From Archangium violaceum (GTDB lineage: Bacteria; Myxococcota; Myxococcia; Myxococcales; Myxococcaceae): DNA of 64,000 bases. Positions 14,084 to 32,624 of this stretch are shown here, piece after piece (within the stretch, counting starts at the first letter, position 1; every line of letters begins with the position of its first letter). Position numbers and translations under genes: made by a program. The notes below the pieces were generated by a model. It was not told where the DNA came from, did not search any database, and saw only the letters and a program-made list of their open reading frames with translations. The DNA lies in the NCBI RefSeq assembly GCF_016887565.1, contig NZ_CP069396.1, positions 7,980,001 to 8,044,000 on the forward strand, read 5' to 3'.

Positions 14084-14093
14084 ATCGCCCGAG

Positions 14094-14351
14094 CTACTCC
14101 AGGACCCACGACTCCTCCGCCGGGTCGTCCGAAGGGGCGCGGAAACAGACTCGCCCCTCTCCACAAGCGTGCGGGTGCACCAGGTCGTCGTCGGGCCCCA
14201 CGCATTCACCCGTCGCGACGCACCAGAACGTCGCGGTCGAGACGAAGCCCACCTCCCAGGCCACCGCCGCGTCGTACCGGACGCCCGGCGTTCCCTTCGA
14301 ACGCACACGCCGGCAGACGCGCGGCGGTTTCCCCTCGGTGCTCGAGTCCAT
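14094..14351 (-). CDS. Small Cys-rich protein at the end of the aldehyde oxidoreductase operon
   Basis: An 85-residue protein not recognised as a known family. It has five cysteines, four of them in two pairs near the middle and end (WCVATGEC and ACGEGRVC). It starts 8 bases after the FAD-subunit stop, with a clear GAGGAG ribosome-binding site, so it is likely translated as the fourth gene of the operon. There is no signal peptide. The paired Cys pattern could bind a metal or form disulfides. A role in cofactor insertion or in regulating the oxidoreductase is only suggested by position. Confidence 0.65.
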   Translation of the reverse strand: MDSSTEGKPPRVCRRVRSKGTPGVRYDAAVAWEVGFVSTATFWCVATGECVGPDDDLVHPHACGEGRVCFRAPSDDPAEESWVLE

Positions 14352-14359
14352 GAGTCTCC

Positions 14360-15349
14360 TCAGGCCGCCGCCGCGGCGAGCACCGTTCGTCGGACCACGG
14401 CCTCGAGGACCGGGACCTTGTAGGCGTTCTTCGAGAGCGGCGTCGCCCCACTCACGGCGGCCCTCGCCGCCTGTCGTGCGAGCTCCTCATCCAGCTTCTT
14501 CCCCACCAGGAGCTTCTCCGCTTCCGTCGCCCGCCGCGGAGTGGGCGCGACCCAGCCCATGGCAATCGCCGCCCGCCGGATGACCTGACCATCCATCTGG
14601 AGCACCACCGCGACGTCGCAGATGGGCCAGTCGTAGCTCTCCCGCTCGCCCTGCTTGTGGTACGCCGCCTTCGTTCCCGCCGCCGGTGCCGGGATGAGCA
14701 CGCGCGTCAACAACTCGTTCGGCGCGATGACCGTATCACCCTGGCGTTTCATGTCCGGTGGCAGCAGGAAGTCGGACAGGGGCACCACCCGCGACTTGCC
14801 CCCGGGGCCACTCAGCTCGACCGAGGCCCCATAGGCCACCAGCGCCGTGGCCGGCGTGGAGGCGTGCACCATCACCGTGCGCTGGTTGTCGAAGATGGCG
14901 TGATACTGGTTCTGCCCCGCGCGGACCCGCTCCACATCGTCGCCACCGGCCTGATGGAAGTGGTCGTACCGGAAGTACCAGCAGCGGGGCCGCTGGAGCA
15001 GGTTCCCGCCCAGGGTGGCGGCATTGCGGACCTGGGGGGTCGCGGCGTGCTCCGCCGCATCCGCGAGCGCCACGAAACGGCGGCGGACCTCGGACTCCCG
15101 TGACAGTCGCGCCAGCGTCACCAGGGCGCCGAGCTCCAGGCCCTGTCTGGCCTCGAAGCGCACCCCGTCCAGCCCCTTGATGGTCTTGAGGTTGACCACC
15201 CGGCGCGGGGCCACCACCCCATTCTTCATCAGGTCCAGCAGGTCCATTCCGCCGGCCTTCGCGACGACAGGCGCGCGCTCGCTCCCCTCACCCAGCAGCG
15301 AGACGGCCTGCTCCACGGACTCGGCATCCACCCATTCGAAGCTCTGCAT
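14360..15349 (-). CDS. Xanthine dehydrogenase-family FAD-binding subunit
   Basis: A 329-residue FAD subunit of a molybdenum hydroxylase. FAD-binding segments are visible: AKAGGMDLLDLMKNG near 31-45 and TLGGNLLQRPRCWYF near 114-128, with the Cys-rich CWYF insert typical of the YagS/PaoB branch. It passes electrons from the iron-sulfur subunit to an acceptor. It follows the Mo subunit by 17 bases. The closest known layout is E. coli PaoABC (YagTSR), a periplasmic aldehyde oxidase, but there the FAD gene lies between the other two. Confidence 0.9.
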   Translation of the reverse strand: MQSFEWVDAESVEQAVSLLGEGSERAPVVAKAGGMDLLDLMKNGVVAPRRVVNLKTIKGLDGVRFEARQGLELGALVTLARLSRESEVRRRFVALADAAEHAATPQVRNAATLGGNLLQRPRCWYFRYDHFHQAGGDDVERVRAGQNQYHAIFDNQRTVMVHASTPATALVAYGASVELSGPGGKSRVVPLSDFLLPPDMKRQGDTVIAPNELLTRVLIPAPAAGTKAAYHKQGERESYDWPICDVAVVLQMDGQVIRRAAIAMGWVAPTPRRATEAEKLLVGKKLDEELARQAARAAVSGATPLSKNAYKVPVLEAVVRRTVLAAAAA

Positions 15350-15366
15350 GCGTCCTCCGGTCCGTC

Positions 15367-17847
15367 TCAGGCCCGCAGCGCCGCGAGCACGTTCGCGGGC
15401 GTCATCGGGAGCGTGCGGATGCGCTTGCCCGTCGCGTTGTAGAAGGCATTGGCCACCGCCGCCGCCGTCGCCACGTTGGCCGGCTCGGCGACTCCGCGCG
15501 CATCCGTCGAGGACTGCGCCCCGAGCTGCTCGAGCAGGATGACCTCGATGCTCGGCACCTCGCGTGAACCGACGATCTTGTACTGATCGACGTTGGCATT
15601 GAGATGATGGCCACTCGCGGCGTCCAGGTGTCTCTCTTCGTACAGGGCGTAGCTCACGCCTTGGATCACCCCTCCGTAGATCTGGCTCTCGGTGAGCTTG
15701 GGGTTGATGGGGCGCCCGCAGTCATGCACCGCGACCATGCGCTCCACCTTGACGATGCCCGTCTCGGTGTCGACCACGACCTCGGCGAACTGCACGCCTC
15801 CAATCCCATGCCGGCTGATGCTCATCTCATTCGTCGACACCATGTACCCTTCGTAGTCGTCACGGCGCTCGGCCCGGTGGGAGAGCTCCTGGAACCCGGC
15901 CTTCTTGACCGCCTCGCGAAATGGCATCGCCGACGCGGTCTTGCCCTTCACCATCACCTTGCCGTTGGCGAAGACGAGCTCGTCCGCGTTCGCACCGAAG
16001 ATCGGGGCGAGCCGTGAGGCCAGCTCTCGGGCACAGCGCCAGGCGGCGTTCCGGGCGGCGGGAGTCAGGGAGCTGGTGACCCGGCTACCACCGGAGGCGG
16101 GCCCCGTCGGATAGCGGGAGTCACCGATATGGGAGCCAATCTCCTCGGGCCGCAAGCCGAACTCCTCCGCCACCACCTGCGCCAGGATGGTGCGAGTCCC
16201 CGTCCCGATGTCCTGCGTGCTGCTGAAGGCCTCGACGGAGCCATCCCCCGTCACCCGCACCTCGCACGCGGTGTTCCGGTGGACCAGGTAGAGCCACTGG
16301 GACTGGGCGAACCCCATCCCCCGCTTGATGGGGTCCTTGTCCGAGCCCGCGGGCCGCCGTTTGTTCCAGCCGAAGCGCTCGGCTCCCACCCGGCGTTCAT
16401 GGGCGCGGGCCACGCAATCATCCGTCCCCGAGACGTCGATCTTGTCCCGGAGCGCGAGCGGATCCATTCCAATCTTCTCCGCCAGCTCGTCGATGGCCTG
16501 CTCCAGGCCGAACATGCCCTGGGCCTGACCGGGCGCCCGGAAGGCGGCACAGGGCCCCGCGTTGGTGAAGACGTCGTATTGCTCCACCTGCACGTTCGGG
16601 CAGGCGTAGAGCGTGGAGTGGGCGAAGCCAACCCCCGCGCCGCCGGCCACGCCTCCGCTGCCGTAGGCCTGGAGCTGGAGCGCCATGAGGGTGCCGTCAC
16701 GCTTCGCGCCCAGCTTGAGCCGTTGAATGCTGTTGGGACGATTGCCCGCCGAGACATGCTCCTCCCGGCGATCCAGCACCATCCGCACCGGCAACCGGGC
16801 CTTGCGGGAAAGGTGGATGGCGAGCAGCCCGAAGTTGCCAATCCCATACTTCGCGCCGAAGCCGCCACCGGTGAAGTCGCTGATCACCCGAATCCTGCTC
16901 TTCGGCAGATCGAAGTGCTCGGCCGCTTCGTCCCGGACGCTTCCGATGTACTGGGTGGAGGCGTAGAGGGTGAGCCCCTCGTCCCGCCAATCCGCGACGA
17001 GCCCGTGTGGCTCCATCGGCACATGGGTCTGCACCTGGGTCCGGTACTCGGCGTCGACCACCACGTCGGACTCGCTCAGTCCCTTGGCGACGTCCCCGCG
17101 CGGGCCCATGCCTCGGGGCTTCGTGTCGGGACCTCGCACGTTGCCTTTCTGGGGAAGGCCCGGCGGTGCCCCGCCGCCTCCCGCGGTCGCCGGCTGTTCG
17201 GTGGGGCCGGGATAGACGCGAGGCGCGTTCTCCTTCATCGCCGCCTCGAGCTCGGAGACATGGGGCAGGGGCTCGTACTCCACCTTGATCAACTTCACCG
17301 CGGCCTCGGCGGCGCGAGGGCTTTCCGCCGCCACCGCCGCGATGGGCTGGCCCGCGTAGCGGATCGTGGGATAGCGATTGCCCTTCTCCGCATTGGGGTC
17401 GCGCAGCTTCGCGGCCGAGAGCAGACGCTCCATGACGTGAACGGCACGGACTCCCGGGGCGCGCTCGGCCGCCGAGGTGTCGATGGACTTGATGCGCGCA
17501 TGGGGCAGCGGCGAGACGAGCCACTTGCCCCAGAGCATTCCGGGGAGCTGGACATCGAAGGTGTAGCGGGCCCTGCCGGTGACCTTCTCGATTCCGTCCA
17601 GACGCGAGACCGGCTTGCCAATGGACTGGAGCTTCGCGTTCTCGGGCAGGGGCGGTGGCTCGTCCAGAGGCACCCGCCGGGTGACCTCCTTCAGTCCCCC
17701 GCCGACAATCCCATACGGGAGTGCCTGTTGCCTCGAGGGTCCCGGGTTCGGAGGAGGCGCCTTCTGGGGTCCCCCTTCCTGTGCCTTCTGTCCCTCGGCG
17801 GGTTTGCCGGCCCCCTGGATACCGGTGGTGTCCTTGACGTCCTGCAT
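15367..17847 (-). CDS. Molybdopterin-binding catalytic subunit of an aldehyde oxidoreductase
   Basis: An 826-residue Mo-cofactor subunit of the xanthine oxidase family. It opens with a Pro/Gly/Gln-rich stretch of about 60 residues, then an aldehyde oxidase a/b hammerhead domain (KVTGRARYTFDVQLPG near 105) and Mo-binding segments (FTGGGFGAKYG, then GPCAAFRAPGQAQG). It closes with VAEPANVATAAAVANA, which holds the catalytic Glu position. It oxidises aldehydes or N-heterocycles with water. Its ATG overlaps the stop of the 2Fe-2S gene (TGATG), so the two are translationally coupled. No signal peptide is present; export would be by piggyback on the Tat signal of the iron-sulfur subunit. Confidence 0.9.
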   Translation of the reverse strand: MQDVKDTTGIQGAGKPAEGQKAQEGGPQKAPPPNPGPSRQQALPYGIVGGGLKEVTRRVPLDEPPPLPENAKLQSIGKPVSRLDGIEKVTGRARYTFDVQLPGMLWGKWLVSPLPHARIKSIDTSAAERAPGVRAVHVMERLLSAAKLRDPNAEKGNRYPTIRYAGQPIAAVAAESPRAAEAAVKLIKVEYEPLPHVSELEAAMKENAPRVYPGPTEQPATAGGGGAPPGLPQKGNVRGPDTKPRGMGPRGDVAKGLSESDVVVDAEYRTQVQTHVPMEPHGLVADWRDEGLTLYASTQYIGSVRDEAAEHFDLPKSRIRVISDFTGGGFGAKYGIGNFGLLAIHLSRKARLPVRMVLDRREEHVSAGNRPNSIQRLKLGAKRDGTLMALQLQAYGSGGVAGGAGVGFAHSTLYACPNVQVEQYDVFTNAGPCAAFRAPGQAQGMFGLEQAIDELAEKIGMDPLALRDKIDVSGTDDCVARAHERRVGAERFGWNKRRPAGSDKDPIKRGMGFAQSQWLYLVHRNTACEVRVTGDGSVEAFSSTQDIGTGTRTILAQVVAEEFGLRPEEIGSHIGDSRYPTGPASGGSRVTSSLTPAARNAAWRCARELASRLAPIFGANADELVFANGKVMVKGKTASAMPFREAVKKAGFQELSHRAERRDDYEGYMVSTNEMSISRHGIGGVQFAEVVVDTETGIVKVERMVAVHDCGRPINPKLTESQIYGGVIQGVSYALYEERHLDAASGHHLNANVDQYKIVGSREVPSIEVILLEQLGAQSSTDARGVAEPANVATAAAVANAFYNATGKRIRTLPMTPANVLAALRA

Positions 17848-18482
17848 CAGCTCTTCCCCCTTCCCTTTCCAGCCGCCGCCAGGGTCGCCTTGAAGACGTT
17901 GGGATAGGTGCCGCACCGGCACAGATGACCGCTGACCGCCTGCTTCACGTCATCGAGCGTGCACTTCGGGTTGCGCTCGACCAGCGCGGCGCAGCTCATC
18001 ACCATTCCAGGCGTGCAGAACCCGCATTGCATCGCGTCGTTCTCCACGAAGGCGCGCTGAACCGGGTGGAGCTCGTCTCCCTGGGCGAGCCCCTCGATGG
18101 TGGTGACCTTCCGGCCTCGGGCGTCGAGCGCCAGCGTCATGCAGCTCGCGACGACCTCGCCGTCGAGCCAGACCGTGCAGGCCGAGCAGGCGCCGCGGTC
18201 GCAACCCACCTTCGTTCCCGTCATTCCGAGGTGGTTGCGCAGCAGCTCGGCCAGGGTCGTGGCGGGATCGACCTGGGCGGCGACGGTGCGGCCATTGATG
18301 GACAGGGACAGCGACGCAGGGCCGGGACCCAGAACCGGCGGAGAAGCCACGGCCGCCGCTTCAGCGGTGGATTGGACCAGCGTGGCGGTCAGTGCGGAAG
18401 CACCCGCGCCGGTGAAGAAGTCGCGGCGGCTGAGCCTGGGCAGCAGGGGCTTGGGGACGGAGTCATCATCGGGTGGGGCCAA
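17847..18482 (-). CDS. Tat-exported 2Fe-2S subunit of an aldehyde oxidoreductase
   Basis: A 211-residue iron-sulfur subunit with a twin-arginine signal (SRRDFFTGAG near 18-27, then an Ala-rich hydrophobic run). It has the two [2Fe-2S] motifs of the family: CDRGACSAC plus a later Cys, and CGFCTPG with CRCGTY near the end. The Tat signal predicts a periplasmic enzyme, as in E. coli PaoABC. The best start is the TTG at 18482, preceded by GAGAGGAG; no ATG or GTG would keep the whole Tat signal. It is the first gene of the four-gene operon. Confidence 0.88.
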   Translation of the reverse strand: MAPPDDDSVPKPLLPRLSRRDFFTGAGASALTATLVQSTAEAAAVASPPVLGPGPASLSLSINGRTVAAQVDPATTLAELLRNHLGMTGTKVGCDRGACSACTVWLDGEVVASCMTLALDARGRKVTTIEGLAQGDELHPVQRAFVENDAMQCGFCTPGMVMSCAALVERNPKCTLDDVKQAVSGHLCRCGTYPNVFKATLAAAGKGRGKS

Positions 18483-18584
18483 TGTCGGACGCTCCTCTCG
18501 CGGATGAAGCTACAAGAGCAATCTCATGACGGCCCGGCCAGGTGCGTGACGATCGAGTCTCGGCGTCAGGTTGAAGACAATGGT

Positions 18585-18624
18585 ATGTCTCCCCGTGCAT
18601 TCACCCGCCATGGCGGGGGGACAT
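18585..18624. other. Hairpin in the gap between the oxidoreductase operon and the FG-GAP lipoprotein
   Basis: Segments 18585-18595 and 18614-18624 pair over 11 positions (one G-T pair). The loop contains the palindrome CCGCCATGGCGG. The site lies about 60 bases upstream of the lipoprotein start and about 100 bases upstream of the oxidoreductase operon, so it could be an operator or a leader structure. Confidence 0.35.
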
Positions 18625-18681
18625 CGCGGGCGTCGGCCGAGGACGCCGCGACAGCCGTAGAAGAAAGACGTCCAAAGCACC

Positions 18682-20484
18682 ATGCATACACGCCATGTAT
18701 CGCTCCTCGTGATGCTGCTGGTGTCGTCCGCGTGCGATATCCTGCCCTTCAAGAAGCCAACCGAACCCTCGGGCCTCCCACCCGGAGCCCCGCTGAACGT
18801 GACGGCCCAGAGCGGACCGTTCTACGCCCCCACGAGCAGCTCGGCGGATGTGAAGTGGGAGGCACCGCAGGACGTGGGCACCAGCCCCATCACCGGCTAC
18901 ACCGTGACGGCGGAACCGGGAGGTCTCACCACCACCACCCGCGGGGAGACCTCCGTGAGTGTGGAGGGGCTCACTCCCGGCACCACCTATACCTTCACGG
19001 TGTACGCCACCAACAGCACGGGACGCGGACCGGACTCGGAGCCCTCCCAATCCCTCACGCTCCCCTCTCCTCCTGGAGTGACGACCGGAGTGACCGCGAC
19101 CCTGGGAGATGGCCATGCCATCGTGCGGTGGAATGGCGCCCCGGTTCCGGCTCCCGCGTTCTGTGGCCACTTCGCGACGCTGACATGCATCAGCGCCTAT
19201 ACGGTGACGGCCTGGCCCGGTGGAATCTCCGTCACCGTCGAGCAGCCCAACACCCTGGACCCGATGACCTACGGCCGCCGCGCCGGCAACAGCCACGCCG
19301 TGCTCACCGGCCTGACGAAGGGAACGGCCTACTCCTTCACCGTCCAGGCCACCAACGGCGTGGGGACCGGGCCCGCTTCGCCCCCCACCCCACCCGCCGT
19401 GGCGCGGTGCTCCACCTTCTCCTCCCAGGAGCTCTTTTCCCTGACGCCCCCTCCCGCCAATACCCTGGGGTCCAGCACGCTCGCGACCGGTGACGTCAAT
19501 GGCGACGAGCGTCCGGACGTGGTCGTCGCGGGCCACTCCGTGGACGTGCTGCTCAATCAGGGAAGCGGACAGCTGTCGGCCCCCATCAGCCTGGCCCAGG
19601 GAGGCTTCAAGTCGGTGGCCCTCGCGGATCTGGATGGAGACACGCTCGCGGACATCGTCACCGTGGCTGGTAACAGCGTGAGGGTCTTCCGCAACACCGG
19701 CGGCGGCACCTTCGCCGCCCCCACCTCGTACGAGGCGGGGACCCCCGCCAACCTCGGCCCCATCGCGGCCGCGGACCTGAATGGCGATGGCCGGGTGGAC
19801 CTGGTGACCTCCGCCGAGCAGGCCGTGCGCGTGCTCCTCAACGCCGGAGATGGCACCTTCGCGGCCCCCACCTCCTACGCCATGAAGACAGGCCTCGGCG
19901 GGCAGCCCGCCCTGGGGGACCTGAACGCGGACGGGAAGATCGACATCGCCATCAAGGACACCCAATACGTGAGCGTGTTTCTCAACGCGGGGGACGGCAC
20001 CTTCGGCAATCCCACGAGCTGGCTCGTGGGGTTCGCCTCCTACCTGCCGCGGGGACCGATCTCGCTCCACCTCGCCGACATGAATGGCGATGACCGGCTG
20101 GATCTCGTCACCTCGGAGGTCACCGTGTCCGTGTTCCTCAACCAGGGAGACGGCACCTTTGGGCCCATCCAGCGGTTCACGGCCTGGCCCTTTCCAGCTC
20201 GGGCCAGCGCCGTCGGTGACGTGAACGGTGACGGAGCACCGGACGTGGTCTTCGGAATGGAGAGCTTCTTCGGCCCTACAGCTCAGCTCACCCCCAACGT
20301 CGTGGCCGTCGTGTTCAACGACGGCCAGGGGCTGCTCGGGGAGCCCGTCCCCTTCCCCTCCCAGACGGCTCCCGACTTCCTGGCCCTCGATGACCTGGAT
20401 GGCGATGGAGGGTTGGACCTCGCCGTGACCTACGCGAGCTTGAACGCCAGGGAGATCAGCCTCCTCCGCGCCTGCCCCCACTGA
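18682..20484 (+). CDS. Lipoprotein with fibronectin type III and FG-GAP/VCBS repeats
   Basis: A 600-residue lipoprotein (lipobox VSSAC, Cys18). Residues 38-240 hold two fibronectin type III units (PLNVTAQ start, SPITGYTVTAEPGG, TTYTFTVYATNSTG; then a second GTAYSFTVQATN). Residues 255-600 hold five or six FG-GAP/VCBS repeats with Asp-rich calcium-binding loops such as DVNGDERPDVVV, DLDGDTLADIVT and DLNGDGRVDLVT, which fold as an integrin-like beta-propeller. It is expected on the cell surface in adhesion or carbohydrate binding. It ends 68 bases before the PKS-NRPS gene on the same strand; a functional link is possible but not shown. Confidence 0.87.
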   Translation: MHTRHVSLLVMLLVSSACDILPFKKPTEPSGLPPGAPLNVTAQSGPFYAPTSSSADVKWEAPQDVGTSPITGYTVTAEPGGLTTTTRGETSVSVEGLTPGTTYTFTVYATNSTGRGPDSEPSQSLTLPSPPGVTTGVTATLGDGHAIVRWNGAPVPAPAFCGHFATLTCISAYTVTAWPGGISVTVEQPNTLDPMTYGRRAGNSHAVLTGLTKGTAYSFTVQATNGVGTGPASPPTPPAVARCSTFSSQELFSLTPPPANTLGSSTLATGDVNGDERPDVVVAGHSVDVLLNQGSGQLSAPISLAQGGFKSVALADLDGDTLADIVTVAGNSVRVFRNTGGGTFAAPTSYEAGTPANLGPIAAADLNGDGRVDLVTSAEQAVRVLLNAGDGTFAAPTSYAMKTGLGGQPALGDLNADGKIDIAIKDTQYVSVFLNAGDGTFGNPTSWLVGFASYLPRGPISLHLADMNGDDRLDLVTSEVTVSVFLNQGDGTFGPIQRFTAWPFPARASAVGDVNGDGAPDVVFGMESFFGPTAQLTPNVVAVVFNDGQGLLGEPVPFPSQTAPDFLALDDLDGDGGLDLAVTYASLNAREISLLRACPH

Positions 20485-20552: not shown

Positions 20553-23500
20553 ATGAGCAGTCCGATCGCGATCGTCGCCGCCGCCTGCCGATTGCCGGAC
20601 GCCGACACACCCGAAGCCTTCTGGAACAACCTGATCGCGGAGCGCATCTCGATGCGCCCGCCCCCCGTGCACCGCTGGCCCGAGCACCCCGACGCCCGGG
20701 TCGGCTCGTTTCTCGACGATGTCCGCGGGTTCGACGCGGCGTTCTTCGGGATGAAGGGCAGTGAGGCGCAGGTCACGGATCCGCAGCAGCGGCTGCTCCT
20801 CCAGACGGCTCATGAAGCGCTCGAGAGAGCCGGCTTCGCGGGCCCGCGCCGACGCAACCGGCGCGTCGGGGTCTTCGTCGGCGTCGGTCAGTCCGACTAC
20901 CAGGAGCCCATCCTCCGGCTCCTCTGGGCGGGCGTGCCCGTGCACCCCTCCGCGGCCGTGGGGAACCTGCGCAACCTCATCCCCTCTCGCGTCTCGCACG
21001 TCCTGGACCTGTCCGGGCCCTCGCTGGCCGTCGACACCGCGTGTTCGTCCTCGCTCGTCGCCCTGCACCTCGCCTGTGAGAGCCTGAACCGCGGCGAGTG
21101 TGAGCTCGCGCTGGCCGGCGGCATCACGCTCAACCTCACCCCCACCGTCTTCACCGTCCTCTCGCGCGCCGGCGCGTTGTCGCCCACCGGCCGCATCCGT
21201 CCGTTCGCTCGGGAGGCCGATGGCATCGTCCTCGGAGAAGGGCTGGGCGTCGTCGTCCTGGAGCGGCTCGAGGACGCGCTCCGGCGGCGCGCTCCCATCC
21301 TGGCCGTGGTGCGTGGAAGCGCGCTCAACAACGACGGCCGCACCTTCAACCCGATGGCCCCCAACCCCGCCCGGCAGATGGCCGTGATGCGCGAGGCCTG
21401 GCAGCGGGCCGGGCTCGAGCCGGCGAGCGCGAGCTACCTCGAAGCGCACGGAACCGGCACGCGCGTGGGGGACTCGATCGAGGCGCGCTCGGTGACGGAG
21501 GTCTTCGGGAGGGCCGGCGCGAATGAACCTCTTGGGCTCGGTTCGGTGAAGGGCAACGTCGGGCATCTCCTGAGCGCCGCCGGAATGGCCAGCCTGCTCA
21601 AGGTCGTGTCCTCGCTCCAGCACCGCATGCTCCCGGCTTCGGTGCATGCCGGCACGGCGGACCCGGAGCACGGCCTCACCTCCGCCGGCATCGCCCTGGT
21701 GGATTCCTCGCGTCCGTGGCGCGGACCCGGGCCCCTGCGCGCCGGCATCAACGGCTTCGGGTTTGGTGGCACCAACGCCCACGTCATCCTGGAAGAGCCG
21801 CCCGCTCATCCTCCCCGCTCTCGCTCCACGAGCACGCGCCCCCCGTTGTGGACGCTGTCCGCGCGGACCGACTCGGCCCTCCGCGCCACCGCTCGCCACC
21901 TCGCGTCCTGGCTCCGGGAGAACCCGGAGGTGGATCTCTCGGATGCGGCCCTGTCCGCGAGCGTCTCGCGAGATCCGGGCCCCCATCGGCTCGCGCTCGT
22001 CGGGACGGAGGCAATCCCGGAGCGGCTCGAGGCCTGGGCGGCTGGAGCCTCGGCCGAGATCCTCCACGGCATGGTTCCCGACCGTGTGGCGAGGAAGAAG
22101 GCGCGCAATGGAGCCTCGTTGGAGGGGGCCTCGGCCGAGCTCGCCGCGAGCGCGTTCGTCGAAGGTGAGGCGTTCGACCGGCTCTCCTGGGACGAGGAGC
22201 CGGAGCGCGAGCACGTCCCCGTGCCCACCTATCCCTTCGAGCCCCGGCCCTGGTGGGCGCCCGAAACGCCCCCGGCCCCAGCCCCGGCGGCACGGCGGCG
22301 GATCGAACATCCGCTCCTGGTGGACGAGCTCGAGCTCACGATGGACCGGGCCGTGCTCCTCGCGCGCATCGCGCCCGACGATCCGCTCGTCTCCGAGCAC
22401 GTCGTGCATGGTGTGCACCTCCTGCCGGGCGCCGCGTGCATCGAGCTGATGCGTGCGGCGGCGCGGCACGCGCTGGGCACGGAGCCGGCGGGTCTCGCGG
22501 ACGTCACGTTCGCCCGGCCCGTCCGCGTGGATGACGAAGCCCGCACGGTCCGCGTCGTGGTCGAGCGCCAGGGTGAGGCCCTCGATGTCTCCTTGTCGGA
22601 CGAGGACGGCGGTGTGCTCGCGCGGGCGAAGGTGCTCCGCGCGAAGCAGGCGCCGCCCCCCGCCGCACCCGGCGGTGACGAGCCACGCACCCGAGGATTC
22701 GAGCCCTCCGAGCTGTACGAGGGGCTCCGTGAGCGGGGAATGGCACATGGGGCTTCCCTGCGCGCCGTCCGCGCCATCGAGCTGGGGGAGCGGACCGCGC
22801 GCGCGGAGCTCTCCCTGCCGGAGCAGGCACGGGAGCGCACCTTCGGCGTGCATCCAGCGCTGCTCGACTCCGCCATGCAGCCGATCGCGGCACTCCTGCT
22901 GGCCCACTCCCGTGAGCGCGAGAGCCTGTACGTGCCGGTACACGTGGAGCAGGTCGAGCTGCTGGGCCCGGTCCCCGACCGGTGCGCGGTCCTGGTGACG
23001 CTGAACGGAGATCCGCGGACGCCCGGCGATGTCGTGCTCTGCGAGGTGGAGGTCCGCGCCGGGAACGAACCCCGGCTGCGCCTTCGCGGACTGCGCCTCC
23101 GCCGTGTCACCGCCGAGGCGCTCCAGGGCACGGAGCGCGATGTCCATACGTGGATGCGTGAGGTGATCTGGCGGGAGGCGACCCCTGAGCCGTCACATCC
23201 GCCCCGGGGACGTTGGGTCATCGTGCCCGCGGTGCATCCGGCGAGCCCCCACGTCACCCGTCGCCTGCGCGAGGCGGGAGCAACGTGCGAACGTGTGGAC
23301 CCGCCGGAACTGAAGGCGGCGCTCGCCCGGGGCGGAACCGAAGGCGTCGTGTTCCTGGGGCCGACGGGGACCGCGACGCCGCTCACCGACGTGGCCTCGT
23401 TCGACCGGGGCCAGCGGGACGGCGTCTTCGCGCTGCTCGAGGTCGCGAGGGTCTGGGATGCGCTCGAACGGGAGCGGCGTCCCGCGTGCCTGCTCGTGGT

Positions 23501-26500
23501 GACCGCTGGCGCGACGGATGGTCTGGCTCCCGAGCGCGCGACGGTGGTGGGGCTGGGGCACGCCTTGGAGGACGAGCTTCCCGGAAGCCGGTGCCGCGTC
23601 GTGGATGCCGACGTCACCGCCTCCGAGGAGGCCATCGCGGACGTGGTGCTGACCGAGGCCTCGTGCACGGCTCCCGAGTCGGACCGGGTCTTCCGGTGGC
23701 GGCGGGGGCGCCGCGAGCGCCGGACGATCGAGCCCCTCGCACAGGCCGGGCAACACATGCACGGGCCTCGTGAGAAGGGGGTGTATCTCGTCACGGGAGG
23801 TGCCGAGGGACTCGGTCACGCGGTGGCCCAACGGCTCGCGCGGGCGGGCCGCACGCTCGTCCTGGTGGGCAGGAAGCCTCTGGCGCATGCACCGGAACGG
23901 GCCGCGCGCATCGAGGCGCTGCGTGCGAACGGCGCGGCCGTCACGTACGTCGCCTGCGACGTCTCCGACCCGGATGGGGTCGCGGGGCTCATCGCGAGGA
24001 TCGTGCTCGACCACGGTGCCCTCCACGGTGTGGTGCACGCGGCGGGTGTGGCTTCGCCGGGTCGTATTGGAGGGCGTGAGGACGCGGCGTTCGCACAGGT
24101 GCTCGGACCCAAGGTGCGAGGCACGTGGCTCCTCTGGCGCGAGCTCGAGCGCAGGCGCATCCGGCCCGACTTCTTCGCGCTCTTCTCGTCCCTGTCGGCG
24201 AGCTGGCCGGGGCTGGGTGGAGGGCTGGGAGACTACGTCGCGGCGAACGCGTACCTGGATGCCTTCGCCCTGGCGCGCCGCGCGGAAGCGCTGCCCTTCA
24301 CGTCCGTGGCCTGGTCCGTGTGGAGTGAGACCGGAATGGGCGCTGATCCCACGCTGGTCCGCGCCATGGAGGCACGCGGGCTCCCCGCGATCCCCACTCG
24401 ACAGGGCGTGGACGCGTTCCTCCGGGTCCTGGAGCTCGGCCGCGCGCACGTGATGGTCGCGCCCATCGGGCCTCGCGCGACCGTGTCGCGGCCACCTCCG
24501 GCCGTGACGCTGGCGCCCGCTCCCACCGCGGCTCCTTCCAGCGTGGTGGAGGAACTTCGCTCGCTCGTGGCGAAGGCGCTCGAAGTGGACCCGGACGAGG
24601 TCGCGACGGACCGTTCGTTCCTGGCCATGGGACTGGACTCACTGAACGCGCTGGATCTGGCGAAGATCCTCTCGGACCGCTACCGCGTCGAGTTCCCTCC
24701 CACCCTGTTCTTCGAGCAGCCCACGATCGATTCGCTCGCGGAATACCTCCGGAAGGCGAAGGGAGACGCGGCCCCGGAACGGAGGCCGGCCGACACGAGT
24801 CCCTCCACCGCGCCGCGCACCGTCGTGACCGAGGCTCCGCTCTCGCCCGTGCAGAAGGCGTTCTGGGTCCAACAGCGGCTGCATCCGGATGTCACCGCGT
24901 TCTCGTTCGTCCGGCAGACGGTTCGAGGGCGGCTCTCGTTGGACGCGCTCCAACGGGCGGTGGACGCGGTGGCACGACGCCATCCCCTGCTTCGCGCCTC
25001 GGTGGCCACCACGGCACACGGAGAGGCCGTGCAACGGATCTCCGAGACCGTGCGGGCCCGGCTCATCGACCACGGCGAGGTCGCGGACGTGGAAGCCCTC
25101 GCCGATGGCATCGTCAACACGCCATTCGAGCTCTCCCCTCCACCCCTGTGGCGCGTGGACGTGGCTCGCGACCCGGCGGCGGATACAACTCACGTGCTCA
25201 TCTGCGCGCACCACCTGATCGTGGACGGCTGGAGCCTGCATGTAATCGCCGCCGATCTCTGGCGGGCGTACGCGGCCACCGTCTCGGGTCGCCCTCTCCC
25301 CGACTGGCCGGAGGCTCACGGCTTCTTCGATACGCTCGATGTCCCCAGACCGAGGCTCGATGAAGACCTCGCGTGGTGGCGCGAGCGCCTCTCGGATGCA
25401 CCCGCCCCCCGGCTGCCATTCGACGGGGATCCGCTCGCTCCACCGGATCCGCCGATCCTGTCAGTGCTCCGCTGGCTCGACCTCGAACGGACGCGGGCGT
25501 TCGAGAAAGCGGCCGCCGCGGCGGACGTGTCCGTGTTCCACCTGTCGCTGGCCGTTCACGCCCGGTGCCTCGCGCGTTGGTCCGGTACGGACGAGGTCAT
25601 CGTGAACGTCGCCCGAGCCCGAAGGGAATCGCGTGTTCCCGGCATCGAGCAGGTGGTGGGTTGCTTCGCGGACACGCTGCCGCTCCGCCTTCGCCTGGAG
25701 CCCGGGGAGTCGCTGGCCCTGCTCGCGAAACGTGCGCGCGAAGCCCTCCTGGAGCTGGAGCGGCACGCCTCGCCCACCTCGCTCGAGCTCGCGCGGGTGC
25801 TCCCCGGGGACGCGGGCTCGTCACGGGTCACGAGTGCCGCCAGCTACAGCTACGCGCGCATCCCGCTCTCCCCCCCTGCAGAGGTCCCCGAGTTGCTTGC
25901 CCTCGCGGGCCGGACGGCGACTCCCGCCACCCGGCTCGGACTCGCGGTGTGGGAGTTCCAAGGAGGGCTGTGCTTCGCGTGGGGCTTTCCGGAGCGCTTG
26001 TTCCGGAAGGACACCGTCGAGCGGTTCGCGGACGAGCACCTGCGCGCCCATGTCGAGGCCGGCTCCGCCCCACGGGCCGAGTCAATTCCCGAGAGGATCA
26101 TCGCGCGCCTCCAGGAGTCACCGGAGCGCGTGGCCCTGCGCGAAGGCGAGCGGCTCCTCACGCGCGGCGAGCTGGACCAGCGGTCCGCCCGTGTGGCCGC
26201 CACGCTCACTGAACGCGGCATCGGCCCTGGCGCGGTGGTGGCCCTCCTGTCGGATCAGAACGCGCAGGGAATCACCGGGCTGCTCGGCATCCTGCGAACG
26301 GGGGCGGCCTGGCTGCCGCTCGATCCGGAGCACCCGCCAGCGCGGCTCCGCTTGCAGCTCGAGCGCGCCGGTACCCGGGTGTGCCTCTTCGCGAGTGGCG
26401 CCGCGAGCACCGCGTCCGAGCTGACAGGGGCGGTCACGACGCTCGCTATCGAGCACCTGGTGGAACCCGGTGCGCTCGCTCCGCCGGTGCGGGCCGGAGA

Positions 26501-29500
26501 CGAGGCGCTCGCGTACATCATCTTCACCTCCGGCTCCACGGGCCGGCCGAAGGGTGTCCCCATCACGCATGGCTCCATGCGCGGCTACCTGGAGTGGGCG
26601 CTGCAAGCGTTCGGGTACGGCGCGGAGGACGTCCTGCTCGGGACGTCGTCGTTGTGCTTCGATGCCTCGGTCCGGCAGGTGCTCGCGCCCCTCCTGGCTG
26701 GGGCCACGCTCGTCTGTTGCCCCCGTTCCCTGGCGAGGGATCCGGAGCGGCTCCTGGAGATCGTGGATCGCGAGCGCGTCACGGTCCTGAGTACCGTGCC
26801 CTCGGTGCTGGCTCGGCTGCTCCGGTATGACCTCCGGCCGCTCGAACGGCTCCGCTGGTTGAAGGTCGGCGGCGAGGCCCTTCCACCCGGGCTCATCCGC
26901 ACGCTGCACGACCGGCTCGGCCGCGCACCTCCCGTGGTGAACCTGTACGGCCCGACCGAGACCACCATCAACGCCACCTGGCACGTGGTGAAGGAGCGCC
27001 CGCCGGAGGATGTCGAGCGCATTCCCATCGGGCGTCCCATCGGCGGGGCGACGGTGCACGTCCTGGCGGAGGACGGCTCCCCCTGTGCTCCCGGAGTCCC
27101 CGGGGAGCTGCACGTGGGGGGACGCGGGCTGTCCTCGGGATACCTCGGAGAGCCGGAGCTGACCCGCCGCGCGTTCATCCCGGGTGCCGGGGGCGTCAGG
27201 CTGTACCGCACCGGAGATCGCGTGGTCGCACGCGAGGACGGGACACTCGACTTCCTCGGGCGGGTGGACGACCAGCTCAAGGTCCACGGCCACCGCATCG
27301 AGCCCGGAGAGATCGAAGCCGTGCTCGCTCGCCACCCGGCGGTCTCGCTGGCGGTGGTCCGCGCCGTCGGGAGCGCCTCCGAGCGCCGCCTCGAGGCGTG
27401 GATCCAATTCCGGGATGCGCCTCCCACGGAGGATGCGCTCCGTGACGTGCTCCGCGAGCACCTTCCCGAGGCGATGTGGCCCAGGCATTTCCACATGCTC
27501 GACTCGCTCCCGACGACGGTCACCGGAAAGGTGGATCGCGCGGCGCTCGAGGCCCTGTCCGGTGCGGCACCGGCTCGGACCATCCGTGGGGGTCCACCGC
27601 GGACGGACACCGAGCAGCGCATCGCGGAGGCCTTCGCGCGCGTCCTGTCCCGGGCCGAGATCGGCCGGGATGACGACTTCTTCGAGCTCGGCGGTGACTC
27701 GATGGCCATCCTGGAGGTGTTCACACGCCTTCAGGCCATGGACCTCCGGCTGCCCCGCCCCGCCACGCTGTACACCGCGCGAACGGTTCGCGCGCTCGCG
27801 GAGGCCATCGACGCGCATTCCGCCCGGAGTTCGCCAGAGCCGGTCGTCGCACGCGCGGCGGATGCCGAGGAGGAATGGTTCCCGCTGTCGCCCGCCCAGC
27901 GAGGGTTCCTCGTGGCCCAGGCGGGCGATCCGGAGGGGTCGGTCCACTGGGCCGCACGGCTGCTGCTGGAGGGGGAGCTCGACTCCGCTCTCTTCCGTGA
28001 GGCACTCGGACGGCTCGTGGAGCGCCACCCGATGCTGCGGACGGTGGTGGATGCGGGCCGGCGTCCGCCCGTGCAGCGCGTGCTGGAGCCGGGGGCGCCT
28101 CCGCTGATCCTCGTGGATCCCTGTACGCCCGATGCGCTCGACCGCCTCTTCACGGAGGCACGGCGCCGGCACTTCGACCCCCAGAAGGAAACACCCATCG
28201 AGTTGCACCTGTGCCGTGTCGCCGCTGACAGACACGTGCTCCTCGTCGCCGCGGACCACCTCATCGGAGACGGACTGAGCGGGTGGATGTTCGTCCGGGA
28301 GCTTCTCCAGGCGTATGACGGGCTCGCCCGAGGCGCGGAGCCGTCGCTCCCTCCGCTCCGCTCGACCTTCCGCGACTACGTCAGGCACCTGGCGGATCGG
28401 GCGGAGACCCAGGATGACGCGGCGTTCTGGCGCCGGACGTTCGCCGTTCCCTACGTGCCGCCACGCACCTGGTACAAGCCCGAGGGCGCCCTCCCCGCCC
28501 GCGACGAGGTGACGCTCTCGTCCGAGCGCGTGGAGACGCTCCGGGCCTCGGCCGCGCGCCGGGGCGGCACGCTGTTCGAGCTGGTGCTCGCCGCGTGGGC
28601 GTTCGCGTTGCGCCGCCTGACGGGGCAGGACGATCTCGTCATCGGCACGGCGGTGTCGGGCCGGGACGCGCCTTTGCCCGACGTACACCGCGTCTTCGGT
28701 CCCTTCGCCACCGCGGTCCCCCTGCGGATGCGGGACGCGGGATCGGCGCCCCAGGAGCTCCTGGAGTCCGTCCGCGGCGTGGTCGCGGACGCACGCGCTC
28801 ACGCGCTCACTCCGGGGGAGATTGCCCGCGCGATTCCCGGCGGCCTCCCACTCGAGGTCGCGGCGGGCACGCGATTCTTCTTCACCTTCATGGACTTCGA
28901 GGCGTTCGGTTCCCTGGAGAGTGAGCGCCTGCGCGTCCATTGGGAGGACTCCGGCACCGAAGGGCACGTGCCACGCGGAGTGGATCTGAAGCTCGCCGCG
29001 CGTCGCCTGGGCGGAGCGCTGCGGCTCTCCTTCCACGCCGCCCCGACGGCACTGGGTCCCCAGGGGCTGGAGCGGGTTCGCGCGGATGTCCTCGACGTGC
29101 TGGAGGTGCTCGCCGGAGAGCCGGGGACGAAGGCACGCCCCCCTTCGCGTCTGGAGGTCCGGTTCGGCCCCATCGACGTGAGCTCGTTGCATGCCGCGCT
29201 GGTGGGTTACCTGCCCGCTCCGGAGGAGGCGGCCAGGGCCGTGGGGCTCGCCTTCGTTCCGAGCCTGCGCGAGGTGCTCCGGAGCCAGCTCTTCCCCGAG
29301 GGGAGCCCTCGCTGGCTCGAGCGCATCGATACGCCGCTCGGCGCCTCGGGGCTCCTGTGCCTGCCGCTGTTCGCGGACGAGCTGGGAGCCCTGGCGCCGG
29401 AGACACTCGCCGCGCGCGTGGTGGAGGCGGTGCTGCTGGCCCACCGCACGGGAGTTCGTGCGTTCTCCCTCGCGGGGATGCTCCCCGCGTACACCGGTTT

Positions 29501-30332
29501 TGGCCGAGAGGTGCTGCATCGGCTCGCCATGAAGGACGGCGCCCCCGAGGACCTCGCGTTCACGACCGGGCACGCCACCACCGTGGTCGCCGTGGTGCGA
29601 AGCATCCTCTCCGCGACCGCCGCGGCGGGCGTGAACCTGTCCGAAGCGGAGGTCGCCTTCGTGGGCGTGGGCTCCATCGGAGCGGCGGCGGCGGAGCTGC
29701 TCCTCCAGGTCGCCGCGCATCCTCGACGCCTCCTCCTCTGCGATCTCCCGCGGGCGGCACGCCGGATGGAGGAGGTAACCACGCGGCTCCGGGAGCAATA
29801 CGGGTTCCGCGGTCCCATCGAGACCGCGTTGGCACCTGGGGCCGTCGCGGACGAGGTCTACCGCGCACGGGTCATCGTTGGGGCCGCGAGCACTCCAGGC
29901 GCGCTGGAGGTGGACCGGCTCGCGCCCGGCACCGTGCTCGTCGACGACTCCTTCCCGACGCTCGTCGACGTTCCAGCCGCGCGGGCGCGGATGCACACGC
30001 GAGGGGACGTCCTCATCGTGGGAGGCGGCCTGTTGGATTGTGGCACCGTGACACGCACGGTGGATGACACGACGCTGCCTCCGGGGCTCCGTCCGGCGCT
30101 GTCGCGCGGCATCTCGCGCGCGGGCGTGGCCAGCTGCCAGCTCGAGCCACTCCTGCGCCGGATGCATCCGGAGCTCCCTCCCGTCTCCGGGCCCGTGGAC
30201 GCCGCCACCGCCTACCAGTACTGGCTGGTCGCACTGGCGTCGGGCCTCCGGGCCGCGCCGCTCCACCTCGGAGCCGAGCTCGTTCCCAACAATCTCCCGG
30301 CGGCCCTCACGGAGCGCGGCAACACGGGGTAG
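20553..30332 (+). CDS. PKS-NRPS with C-terminal acyl-ACP-reductase-like domain
   Basis: A 3,259-residue megasynthase. Order by residue: KS 1-417 (Cys164, His299, His338 all present); no acyltransferase in the 165-residue linker; DH 584-850 (His616 in HxxxGxxxxP, Asp772 in DSAMQ); KR about 940-1300 (VTGGAEGLG near 1080, Ser1215, Tyr1228, Asn1232); ACP (Ser1363); condensation domain 1430-1840 (H1553-H1554 and Asp1558); adenylation domain 1845-2345 (FTSGSTGRPKG, NLYGPTETT, YRTGD, PTTVTGKVDR); PCP (Ser2383); second condensation domain 2445-2870 (Asp2568-His2569-x3-Asp2573); and from about 2875 a domain resembling cyanobacterial acyl-ACP reductase. The last has GVGSIG at 3038-3043 and Cys3195 in ASCQLEPLL. 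One reduced or dehydrated acyl unit is joined to one amino acid; reductive release to an aldehyde is inferred. An AT and a phosphopantetheinyl transferase must come from elsewhere. Confidence 0.93.
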   Translation: MSSPIAIVAAACRLPDADTPEAFWNNLIAERISMRPPPVHRWPEHPDARVGSFLDDVRGFDAAFFGMKGSEAQVTDPQQRLLLQTAHEALERAGFAGPRRRNRRVGVFVGVGQSDYQEPILRLLWAGVPVHPSAAVGNLRNLIPSRVSHVLDLSGPSLAVDTACSSSLVALHLACESLNRGECELALAGGITLNLTPTVFTVLSRAGALSPTGRIRPFAREADGIVLGEGLGVVVLERLEDALRRRAPILAVVRGSALNNDGRTFNPMAPNPARQMAVMREAWQRAGLEPASASYLEAHGTGTRVGDSIEARSVTEVFGRAGANEPLGLGSVKGNVGHLLSAAGMASLLKVVSSLQHRMLPASVHAGTADPEHGLTSAGIALVDSSRPWRGPGPLRAGINGFGFGGTNAHVILEEPPAHPPRSRSTSTRPPLWTLSARTDSALRATARHLASWLRENPEVDLSDAALSASVSRDPGPHRLALVGTEAIPERLEAWAAGASAEILHGMVPDRVARKKARNGASLEGASAELAASAFVEGEAFDRLSWDEEPEREHVPVPTYPFEPRPWWAPETPPAPAPAARRRIEHPLLVDELELTMDRAVLLARIAPDDPLVSEHVVHGVHLLPGAACIELMRAAARHALGTEPAGLADVTFARPVRVDDEARTVRVVVERQGEALDVSLSDEDGGVLARAKVLRAKQAPPPAAPGGDEPRTRGFEPSELYEGLRERGMAHGASLRAVRAIELGERTARAELSLPEQARERTFGVHPALLDSAMQPIAALLLAHSRERESLYVPVHVEQVELLGPVPDRCAVLVTLNGDPRTPGDVVLCEVEVRAGNEPRLRLRGLRLRRVTAEALQGTERDVHTWMREVIWREATPEPSHPPRGRWVIVPAVHPASPHVTRRLREAGATCERVDPPELKAALARGGTEGVVFLGPTGTATPLTDVASFDRGQRDGVFALLEVARVWDALERERRPACLLVVTAGATDGLAPERATVVGLGHALEDELPGSRCRVVDADVTASEEAIADVVLTEASCTAPESDRVFRWRRGRRERRTIEPLAQAGQHMHGPREKGVYLVTGGAEGLGHAVAQRLARAGRTLVLVGRKPLAHAPERAARIEALRANGAAVTYVACDVSDPDGVAGLIARIVLDHGALHGVVHAAGVASPGRIGGREDAAFAQVLGPKVRGTWLLWRELERRRIRPDFFALFSSLSASWPGLGGGLGDYVAANAYLDAFALARRAEALPFTSVAWSVWSETGMGADPTLVRAMEARGLPAIPTRQGVDAFLRVLELGRAHVMVAPIGPRATVSRPPPAVTLAPAPTAAPSSVVEELRSLVAKALEVDPDEVATDRSFLAMGLDSLNALDLAKILSDRYRVEFPPTLFFEQPTIDSLAEYLRKAKGDAAPERRPADTSPSTAPRTVVTEAPLSPVQKAFWVQQRLHPDVTAFSFVRQTVRGRLSLDALQRAVDAVARRHPLLRASVATTAHGEAVQRISETVRARLIDHGEVADVEALADGIVNTPFELSPPPLWRVDVARDPAADTTHVLICAHHLIVDGWSLHVIAADLWRAYAATVSGRPLPDWPEAHGFFDTLDVPRPRLDEDLAWWRERLSDAPAPRLPFDGDPLAPPDPPILSVLRWLDLERTRAFEKAAAAADVSVFHLSLAVHARCLARWSGTDEVIVNVARARRESRVPGIEQVVGCFADTLPLRLRLEPGESLALLAKRAREALLELERHASPTSLELARVLPGDAGSSRVTSAASYSYARIPLSPPAEVPELLALAGRTATPATRLGLAVWEFQGGLCFAWGFPERLFRKDTVERFADEHLRAHVEAGSAPRAESIPERIIARLQESPERVALREGERLLTRGELDQRSARVAATLTERGIGPGAVVALLSDQNAQGITGLLGILRTGAAWLPLDPEHPPARLRLQLERAGTRVCLFASGAASTASELTGAVTTLAIEHLVEPGALAPPVRAGDEALAYIIFTSGSTGRPKGVPITHGSMRGYLEWALQAFGYGAEDVLLGTSSLCFDASVRQVLAPLLAGATLVCCPRSLARDPERLLEIVDRERVTVLSTVPSVLARLLRYDLRPLERLRWLKVGGEALPPGLIRTLHDRLGRAPPVVNLYGPTETTINATWHVVKERPPEDVERIPIGRPIGGATVHVLAEDGSPCAPGVPGELHVGGRGLSSGYLGEPELTRRAFIPGAGGVRLYRTGDRVVAREDGTLDFLGRVDDQLKVHGHRIEPGEIEAVLARHPAVSLAVVRAVGSASERRLEAWIQFRDAPPTEDALRDVLREHLPEAMWPRHFHMLDSLPTTVTGKVDRAALEALSGAAPARTIRGGPPRTDTEQRIAEAFARVLSRAEIGRDDDFFELGGDSMAILEVFTRLQAMDLRLPRPATLYTARTVRALAEAIDAHSARSSPEPVVARAADAEEEWFPLSPAQRGFLVAQAGDPEGSVHWAARLLLEGELDSALFREALGRLVERHPMLRTVVDAGRRPPVQRVLEPGAPPLILVDPCTPDALDRLFTEARRRHFDPQKETPIELHLCRVAADRHVLLVAADHLIGDGLSGWMFVRELLQAYDGLARGAEPSLPPLRSTFRDYVRHLADRAETQDDAAFWRRTFAVPYVPPRTWYKPEGALPARDEVTLSSERVETLRASAARRGGTLFELVLAAWAFALRRLTGQDDLVIGTAVSGRDAPLPDVHRVFGPFATAVPLRMRDAGSAPQELLESVRGVVADARAHALTPGEIARAIPGGLPLEVAAGTRFFFTFMDFEAFGSLESERLRVHWEDSGTEGHVPRGVDLKLAARRLGGALRLSFHAAPTALGPQGLERVRADVLDVLEVLAGEPGTKARPPSRLEVRFGPIDVSSLHAALVGYLPAPEEAARAVGLAFVPSLREVLRSQLFPEGSPRWLERIDTPLGASGLLCLPLFADELGALAPETLAARVVEAVLLAHRTGVRAFSLAGMLPAYTGFGREVLHRLAMKDGAPEDLAFTTGHATTVVAVVRSILSATAAAGVNLSEAEVAFVGVGSIGAAAAELLLQVAAHPRRLLLCDLPRAARRMEEVTTRLREQYGFRGPIETALAPGAVADEVYRARVIVGAASTPGALEVDRLAPGTVLVDDSFPTLVDVPAARARMHTRGDVLIVGGGLLDCGTVTRTVDDTTLPPGLRPALSRGISRAGVASCQLEPLLRRMHPELPPVSGPVDAATAYQYWLVALASGLRAAPLHLGAELVPNNLPAALTERGNTG

Positions 30333-31529: not shown

Positions 31530-31625
31530 ACCGGGAAGCGCGTGGCCGGTCAGGTGGAGGCGCCGGCCCCCGTCAGCGCCTCGCCGGGACGAGACCCCTC
31601 TCGTCCCCCCTCAGGAGAAGCCGTC

Positions 31626-32624
31626 ATGGAGAGGAAGCTGGTGTCCGTGCAGTGCGTCGATCATCTCGAGCCGATCGCGGGCGCCGACAACATCCTGAAG
31701 GCGCGTGTGATGGGCTGGGACGTCGTCGTCAAGAAGGGCGAGTTCACCCCGGGCGATCCCTGCGTCTTCTTCGAGATCGACAGCGTCCTGCCCTCGGGGG
31801 CACCGTGGGCGGAGTTCCTCCGGCCGCGAGGCTTCCGGGTGAAGACCGCGCGTCTGCGCGGGGTGCTGTCCCAGGGGCTCGCCCTGCCCGTCTCCATCCT
31901 CTCCGGCGAGGTTCCCCCGCGGGGCACCGACGTGCGGGAGCAGCTCGGGGTCGTGAAGTTCGAGCCGGTGCTGCCCGACACGCGGGAGATCGCCGGGCCC
32001 TTCCCGGGCCAGGTGCCCAAGACGGATGAGCTCCGCCTGCAGTCGGCGCTCGGCGTCTTGGACGAGCTCCGAGGCCTCGACTTCTACGTGACGACGAAGC
32101 TGGATGGGACGTCCGCGACCTTCTTCCGGCCGCTCGAGGGCGAGCTCGTGGCCTGCTCCCGCAACTGGGCGCTGAGGCGCGGGCCGAACCCGGTGTGGCG
32201 CATGGCCGAGCGGTACGCGCTCGACACGGTCCTCCCGCCCGGCTTCGCCGTGCAGGGCGAGCTGTGTGGCCCCGGCATCCAGAAGAACCGCCTGGGCCTC
32301 TCCGATCTCGACCTGTTCGTGTTCAGCGTCCACGACACCCGGACCGGGGTGTACCTCGACCAGACCGCGCTCGCCGCGTTCTGCGCCGAGCGGGGGCTGC
32401 GCACCGTCCCGGTCGAGCACGTCGTCACGGGCGATGCCGCACGCACGTTCGACCACGGCCTCGAGCACTACCTGAAGCTCGCCCAGGGCTTCTACACGGG
32501 CACCCGCAACCGCAAGGAGGGCATCGTGGTGCGGCCCCTCGTGGAGCGCCACTCGCCCACGCTCGGGGGCAGGCTGTCGTTCAAGGTCATCAACAACGAC
32601 TTCCTGCTCAAGGACGAGGACTGA
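31626..32624 (+). CDS. ATP-dependent RNA ligase, DraRnl (Rnl5-like) type
   Basis: A 332-residue ligase. The N-terminal 90 residues form an OB-fold (ERKLVSVQCVDHLEPIAGAD, then WDVVVKKGEFTPGDPCVFFE). The nucleotidyltransferase core carries KLDGTS with the adenylated Lys158, then RNWALRR, and ends with EGIVVRPL and LSFKVIN, the motif IV and V lysines. An N-terminal OB-fold before the catalytic core is the arrangement of Deinococcus DraRnl, which seals 3'-OH RNA/5'-phosphate DNA nicks in duplexes. AGGAG lies 8 bases before this ATG; an earlier in-frame GTG adds a Pro-rich leader without family sequence. It overlaps no gene and sits 15 bases before a spermidine-synthase-like gene. Confidence 0.88.
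   Translation: MERKLVSVQCVDHLEPIAGADNILKARVMGWDVVVKKGEFTPGDPCVFFEIDSVLPSGAPWAEFLRPRGFRVKTARLRGVLSQGLALPVSILSGEVPPRGTDVREQLGVVKFEPVLPDTREIAGPFPGQVPKTDELRLQSALGVLDELRGLDFYVTTKLDGTSATFFRPLEGELVACSRNWALRRGPNPVWRMAERYALDTVLPPGFAVQGELCGPGIQKNRLGLSDLDLFVFSVHDTRTGVYLDQTALAAFCAERGLRTVPVEHVVTGDAARTFDHGLEHYLKLAQGFYTGTRNRKEGIVVRPLVERHSPTLGGRLSFKVINNDFLLKDED

Follow-up and report, generated by a model that had tools for sequence, protein, structure and literature searches.

Domain organization of the megasynthase

The 64,000-nucleotide stretch of the Archangium violaceum genome analyzed here (the window) carries on its forward strand a PKS-NRPS megasynthase gene encoding 3259 amino acids (20553..30332). 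Within its open reading frame, Pfam matches to ketosynthase (KS), dehydratase (DH), and ketoreductase (KR) domains, two carriers, two condensation (C) domains, and one adenylation (A) domain give the order KS-DH-KR-ACP-C1-A-PCP-C2-TADa, where TADa is our label for the branch to which the last domain belongs. The polyketide part consists of a ketosynthase with a CSSS active site (residues 3-420, 20559..21812, PF00109/PF02801), a dehydratase (residues 586-870, 22308..23162, PF21089/PF14765), a ketoreductase (residues 1076-1259, 23778..24329, PF08659), and an acyl carrier with the motif GLDSLN (residues 1333-1400, 24549..24752, PF00550). The peptide part, on Pfam matches and motifs, consists of condensation domain C1 with HHLIVDG (residues 1420-1840, 24810..26072), an adenylation domain with the ten-residue code DARSKGLINK at hand-placed positions (residues 1853-2330, 26109..27542), a peptidyl carrier with GGDSM (residues 2345-2412, 27585..27788), a second condensation domain, C2, with DHLIGDG and a catalytic-type histidine (residues 2436-2860, 27858..29132), and the terminal domain (residues 2876-3250, 29178..30302). 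A Pfam search of the whole protein found neither an acyltransferase (AT, PF00698) nor a loading ligase. In the sister genome G063, the orthologous megasynthase lacks the DH, with the frame kept (BLASTN gap at about 22336-23142 of the window), so the products of the two proteins may differ as enoyl and hydroxy compounds; the Archangium lipolyticum copy P0002 (2995 aa) is likewise without a DH.

C2 has the fold and the catalytic histidine of the HHxxxDG motif and is predicted to be an active condensation domain, yet no carrier follows it in the window protein. Because it lies after the PCP, we considered it as an epimerization domain and rejected this, since by eye its motifs agree with ordinary C domains, which also make up most of its PDB matches; the matches also include X, heterocyclization, and epimerization domains of the same fold. 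HtmB2-CT, which we take from its title to be a terminal C domain, is one of many structural matches.

A terminal domain of the AAR/PigE/TAD superfamily

The earlier note on this DNA had described an unusual redox-type terminal domain, neither a standard NRPS reductase (R) domain nor a thioesterase, lying directly after a condensation domain. The domain map places it there, all of the motifs named are found at the residues given, and the unusual domain is real. At a maximum E of 10, there is no match to PF07993 (NAD_binding_4, the standard R domain) in the megasynthase and none to the type I thioesterase PF00975 at its C-terminus; the same library matches the control proteins P0175 at 6.4e-70 (PF07993) and P0206 at 9.4e-31 (PF00975), and both identities were rejected.

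No Pfam-A model scores above its cut-off in the terminal stretch, so routine annotation misses what is a common domain. In NCBIfam, the PigE profile and, weakly, the profile of cyanobacterial acyl-ACP reductase (AAR) match, both far below their cut-offs; the AAR model TIGR04058 scores 31.3 bits against a curated cut-off of 449.7, which places the domain outside that family. Profile comparison therefore sustains the exclusion of a standard R domain and goes against the assignment to AAR. A phmmer search of the PDB gave E values of 5.8e-39 for 9e4x, a carmabin TAD, and 3.3e-5 for AAR, and the carmabin TAD is the closest solved structure both by sequence (26% identical) and by fold. The AAR fold that the earlier note proposed is confirmed by fold comparison, but its description of the domain as a cyanobacterial-type AAR gives way to membership of the carmabin TAD group on phmmer, fold, tree, and signature residues (His for Asn, DDS for DGG). 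An AAR orthologue was rejected on the sub-cut-off TIGR04058 score, the tree, and the residue signatures.

The title "TAD from Carmabin Biosynthetic Pathway" is shared by five PDB entries (9e4s, 9e4u, 9e4x, 9e50, and 9e56), released on 2025-02-26. They are known here from their titles, and we take the letters TAD presumably to denote an amide-forming domain. The title of 9e56 gives Cys2238 in a disulfide with dephospho-CoA, and the closest solved relatives include, again by title, a TAD with NAD(H) bound and an AAR with NADPH bound. Together with the hectoramide and vatiamide domain in the same place, as described in PMC10949194, these entries overturn the claim that no assembly line with such a domain had been described. 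The family is widespread, largely unstudied, and common to streptomycetes and cyanobacteria, so that the window's case has precedents. With the carmabin-type TADs the window domain shares the fold, the cysteine, TTGH, DDS, and GxGS[IV]G; it departs from them in having Glu rather than Ser three residues after the cysteine and in its place outside their clade. By comparison, then, the domain is shown to be of the AAR/PigE/TAD fold, with an intact dinucleotide loop and the invariant cysteine, and to lie outside the carmabin TAD clade.

Two branches and their signature residues

The branch that contains the carmabin TAD was for that reason named TADb. Its members were collected with the protein of genome G062, which retrieved 157 proteins at E <= 0.001 out of 7995 scored, 120 of them listed. 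For the alignment, matches shorter than 300 residues were dropped, leaving 129 of 134 TADa and 120 of 120 TADb proteins, and 11 of the 80 analyzed loci were added. In a quick tree of the 99 rows left after removal of rows more than 62% identical, a branch with support 100 separates all TADb rows (77/77) from the window domain, and AAR together with a TamH-like domain from the window's own genome forms a separate branch with support 99. One sequence, L079, branches at the base of TADb (support 88), so that TADa (20 rows) requires two changes on the tree. TADa thus appears to be a distinct branch, its strict monophyly left unsupported by the quick tree on account of L079.

Residues were counted over 140 TADa, 121 TADb, and 31 AAR sequences and one TamH-like sequence (n = 293). 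Cys3195 (30135..30137), the candidate acyl-enzyme cysteine, aligns with the cysteine of AAR and is Cys in 293/293, which upholds its proposed standing as a catalytic-type position. The GVGSIG dinucleotide loop proposed at residues 3038-3043 (29664..29681) is likewise borne out by motif and alignment, with its three glycines kept in 140/140 TADa. The TTGH signature (residues 3004-3007, 29562..29573) ends in His3007, present in all 261 TADa and TADb sequences and replaced by Asn in all 31 AARs and the TamH-like domain. The DDS signature (residues 3131-3133, 29943..29951) includes Asp3132, kept in 261/261 TADa and TADb sequences and Gly in AAR, and Ser3133, kept in 259/261; AAR has DGG there (GG in 31/31). 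Three residues after the cysteine the affinities are reversed, since Glu3198 (30144..30146) is matched by Glu in 139/140 TADa, 31/31 AAR, and the own-genome TamH-like domain, and also in PigE (CMAET), whereas TADb has Ser in 120/121; the window's CxxE (Cys3195/Glu3198) accordingly aligns with Cys and Glu of all 31 AARs. The column of Gly3157 in the window is mostly Glu in TADb (109/121). By these counts, TADa pairs the signature of a TAD with a Glu at Cys+3 like that of the reductases. As a sign of reduction the Glu is suggestive, not proof, being one residue, and the text of the AAR paper (PMC7089970) makes no mention of E297.

Asp3064 (29742..29744), which ends the second Rossmann strand and is Asp in 140/140 TADa and 114/121 TADb, suggests NADH as the cofactor. 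Arg3067, however, aligns with an Arg present in 31/31 AAR, which leaves the preference for NADH over NADPH unsure; most TADa (105/140) have Gly at this position. AAR is gapped near Asp3064, and the comparison covers the region of one of its NADPH-binding arginines (R189, R193, and R314 in PMC7089970).

Distribution and architecture of relatives

A search with the terminal region retrieved 300 proteins at E <= 0.001 out of 2525 candidates scored, and our protein-level TADa counts refer to the 120 of these that were listed. Among these listed matches, the relatives are mostly PKS-NRPS proteins of Streptomyces and other actinobacteria, and those with names mostly carry the label NRPS, PKS, or adenylation-domain protein. 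All 120 listed, the query included, end in carrier, C domain, and terminal domain, and the alignment shows the His and Asp of C2 kept in all 120. A scan of genome contigs found 154 relatives, and in the best 80 of these 154 loci the domain follows a C domain in 78, the frame being cut just upstream in the other 2.

The usual build, found in Streptomyces, Actinoplanes, Micromonospora, Herpetosiphon, and others, is AMP ligase-carrier-KS-AT-KR-carrier-C-A-carrier-C-domain. The first domain was called FAAL by eye, Pfam giving AMP-binding only, twice per protein; a Pfam AT is present in P0037 and none was detected in P0012. Two loci, L044 and L065, from a Chloroflexi and a Sericytochromatia MAG, resemble the window in starting with KS after an upstream stop codon and having no detected AT. 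Matches occur in 27 of 199 sampled Streptomyces species (E <= 1e-55, one match each), in 5 of 201 genomes of the Herpetosiphon phylum (E <= 1e-20), and in 7 of 195 genomes of the window's phylum (E <= 1e-8). In the window's own genome and in G063, the match spans the full domain at 93-100%; four further genomes have matches of 36-38%, in reading frames about 1500 aa long, and in the seventh the match is split between two contigs. One of the four is G062, whose AMP-ligase-carrier protein has the C-terminal end that defines TADb.

In TADb, a carrier immediately precedes the domain in 85 of the 120 proteins listed; its other predecessors are a region without assignment (X, 15), KR (9), A (6), C (2), KS (1), and nothing detected (2), and the single-sequence scan may have overlooked some carriers. 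In P0175 and P0219, carrier and TAD are followed by a standard R domain, and in P0206 and P0189 by a thioesterase, which gives each of them two potential release domains, one after the other. With R or TE after the TAD in these four TADb proteins, the domain may not always release the chain and may act before release.

Several other contexts of the superfamily were observed. Archangium and its relatives have proteins of 1450-1540 aa (one of 1150) with an AMP ligase, a carrier, a Pfam-less region of about 420 residues, and a carmabin-type TAD (L096:2244-6725, reverse strand; P0135-P0149). Reducing PKS modules with a C-terminal carmabin-type TAD occur in P0201, P0223, P0240, P0247, P0252, and P0253, and P0180 is a KS-AT-carrier-aminotransferase-TAD protein. 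On Pantoea stewartii plasmid pCN101 (L145, 7578-8867), a stand-alone hypothetical gene matches the domain at 34% (E 5e-20) within a row of NRPS/PKS genes, adjoining a luciferase-like monooxygenase.

Adenylation code and genomic neighborhood

With code positions assigned by hand according to the GrsA scheme, the A domains of the 120 listed proteins read DARSHGLINK in 88, DARSHGLVNK in 22, DARSKGLINK (the window's type) in 5, and another code in 5. We know of no product name for the code DARS[HK]GL[IV]NK. Flanks were compared in ten lineages with both sides read (six Streptomyces, three of the Herpetosiphon phylum, and the window). Of 54 flank families shared by at least two of the ten, one crosses phyla, at 28-31% identity, and no strong flanking family across phyla was found; some families shared within Streptomyces resemble antisense shadows of the gene itself. 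In the best 80 of 154 loci, the commonest downstream family occurs in at most 15, and 71 have more than 3 kb downstream. A Streptomyces fungicidicus plasmid copy lies between WGR-domain and TerB-family genes. A near-invariant A code without shared neighbors suggests one old, widespread metabolite, and the pathway looks nearly self-contained. A literature search returned no paper on actinobacterial megasynthases with TADa, nor an assigned metabolite.

In the window, the megasynthase gene has a gene for an FG-GAP repeat protein upstream and one for a PAS histidine kinase downstream. The downstream order is kept in G063 (kinase, RNA ligase, spermidine-synthase-like, DnaJ, ProC, DivIVA). The upstream part (window about 14084-20435), which holds the FG-GAP and molybdenum hydroxylase genes, is absent from the corresponding stretch read in G063, for which reason the FG-GAP gene was rejected as a pathway partner. 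A related kinase (65-69%) is present in four further genomes of the genus, where the 19 kb read around it contains nothing that matches the megasynthase. The molybdenum hydroxylase set (14360-18482, reverse strand) has a large subunit by Pfam and FAD and FeS subunits by eye. The RNA ligase (31542-32624; PF09414, with the PHA02142 OB fold PF21189) lies between the histidine kinase and the spermidine-synthase-like gene.

Models for the release chemistry

Published work gives several systems for comparison. AAR forms an acyl-enzyme on Cys294 that is reduced by NADPH, converting carrier-bound thioesters to aldehydes (PMC7089970). PtTamH has an NADH-specific, AAR-type reductase domain that produces an aldehyde from an acyl carrier (PMC9594044), and PigE was assigned in the same way (PMC8341465). 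The window domain resembles PigE and PtTamH in the AAR fold, in CxxE (PigE), and in a presumed action on carrier-bound thioesters, but these are aminotransferase fusions and the window protein has no aminotransferase; PigE and the own-genome TamH-like protein have TGN where the window has TTGH. Cyanobacterial AAR (6jzu/6jzy, orf1594) differs in being stand-alone, in using NADPH, and in its TGN and DGG. Hectoramide HcaD has, after its last PCP, a domain (residues 1544-1977) 83.5% identical to that of VatR and "believed to catalyze" offloading by terminal amidation, and carmabin A is named among the terminal amides (PMC10949194). From position, length, and the authors' comparison, we infer that the HcaD and VatR domains belong to the carmabin TAD family. 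They share with the window domain a terminal NRPS position after a carrier and a proposed role in release, but they stand directly after the PCP, whereas in the window, unlike in the carmabin TAD also, a C domain intervenes. Reductive release as such is common to the standard R domains (PF07993), a different family. The levesquamide terminal reductase, compared by description, is in its authors' account an ordinary release to the alcohol, and the karnamicin and lyngbyapeptin excerpts hold nothing bearing on the terminal domain.

Our best explanation, to which we assign a probability of roughly one half, is that the C-terminal 375 residues act as the release domain of this one-protein PKS-NRPS and offload the chain as an aldehyde by NADH-dependent reduction. 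The acyl-aminoacyl chain would pass from the carrier to Cys3195, NADH would reduce the thioester, and the product would leave as an aldehyde that may cyclize or undergo further reduction. C2 probably assists, and we would guess at chain hand-over, ring closure on the aldehyde, or condensation between the carriers of two subunits. We favor reduction because of the invariant cysteine, the Glu three residues on, the loop glycines, Asp3064, the chemistry of AAR and PtTamH, and the NAD(H)- and NADPH-bound relatives. Against it, an active C domain ahead of a domain that requires a thioester is hard to explain, and TADa has TTGH and DDS in common with TADb, a branch in which the cyanobacterial members are presumed to form amides; as judged by alignment, TADa is closer to this presumed amide-forming branch than to the known reductases.

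If that closeness extends to function, the chain would instead be released as a primary amide, with NAD(H) held without net reduction, as proposed for carmabin, vatiamide, and hectoramide. We regard terminal amidation as the main rival, possible but less likely than reduction. The carmabin TAD as closest solved relative by sequence and fold, the His, Asp, and Ser that the TAD branches share to the exclusion of AAR, and the hectoramide authors' proposal all speak for it, but the paper that proposes it also states that the mechanism and enzymology of this cyanobacterial amidation are unstudied (PMC10949194), TADa differs from TADb at Cys+3 and at Gly3157, C2 is interposed, and TADa stands apart in the tree.

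The interposed C2 could itself catalyze release, or iterate, by coupling the chain with a free amine or with the carrier of a second subunit, with TADa acting at another step or making the nucleophile. The retention of its active site in all 120 listed proteins despite the missing downstream carrier, the carrier-TAD-R and carrier-TAD-TE proteins of the sister group, and the match to HtmB2-CT are consistent with this, but the invariant cysteine and the disulfide in the title of 9e56 point to direct contact of the terminal domain with the carrier arm and make it improbable. Least credible by far is a fused cyanobacterial AAR orthologue acting on fatty acyl chains, or a divergent standard R domain, for the AAR fold and weak TIGR04058 match are set against a score hundreds of bits below cut-off, the lack of PF07993, and a tree and signatures outside AAR.

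More speculatively, C2 and TADa may form a two-catalyst release unit, an obligate active C domain with a dinucleotide/cysteine domain, of which we found no description. The unit would end an almost self-contained, single-protein lipo-amino-acid pathway that yields the same conserved compound in Actinomycetota, Chloroflexota, Myxococcota, and Sericytochromatia; this might be a reactive aldehyde or a ring formed from one. Release chemistry determines the product of an assembly line, and the CxxE/CxxS split allows the choice between aldehyde and amide to be tested directly, including for the cyanobacterial amides whose enzymology PMC10949194 describes as unstudied.

Other features of the window and genome

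A third tRNA called by ARAGORN at 2280-2348 of the window has no Rfam match; just before it, at 2117-2271, tRNA-Ile(gat) and tRNA-Ala lie in tandem with Rfam support. Elsewhere in the same genome (G000:C1:1752500-1763500, reverse strand), a 1578-aa frame encodes a second AAR-fold protein (PigE E 1.1e-26, AAR 1.6e-16), which by eye is fused to a class III aminotransferase and situated beside a ferritin/oxygenase-like gene.
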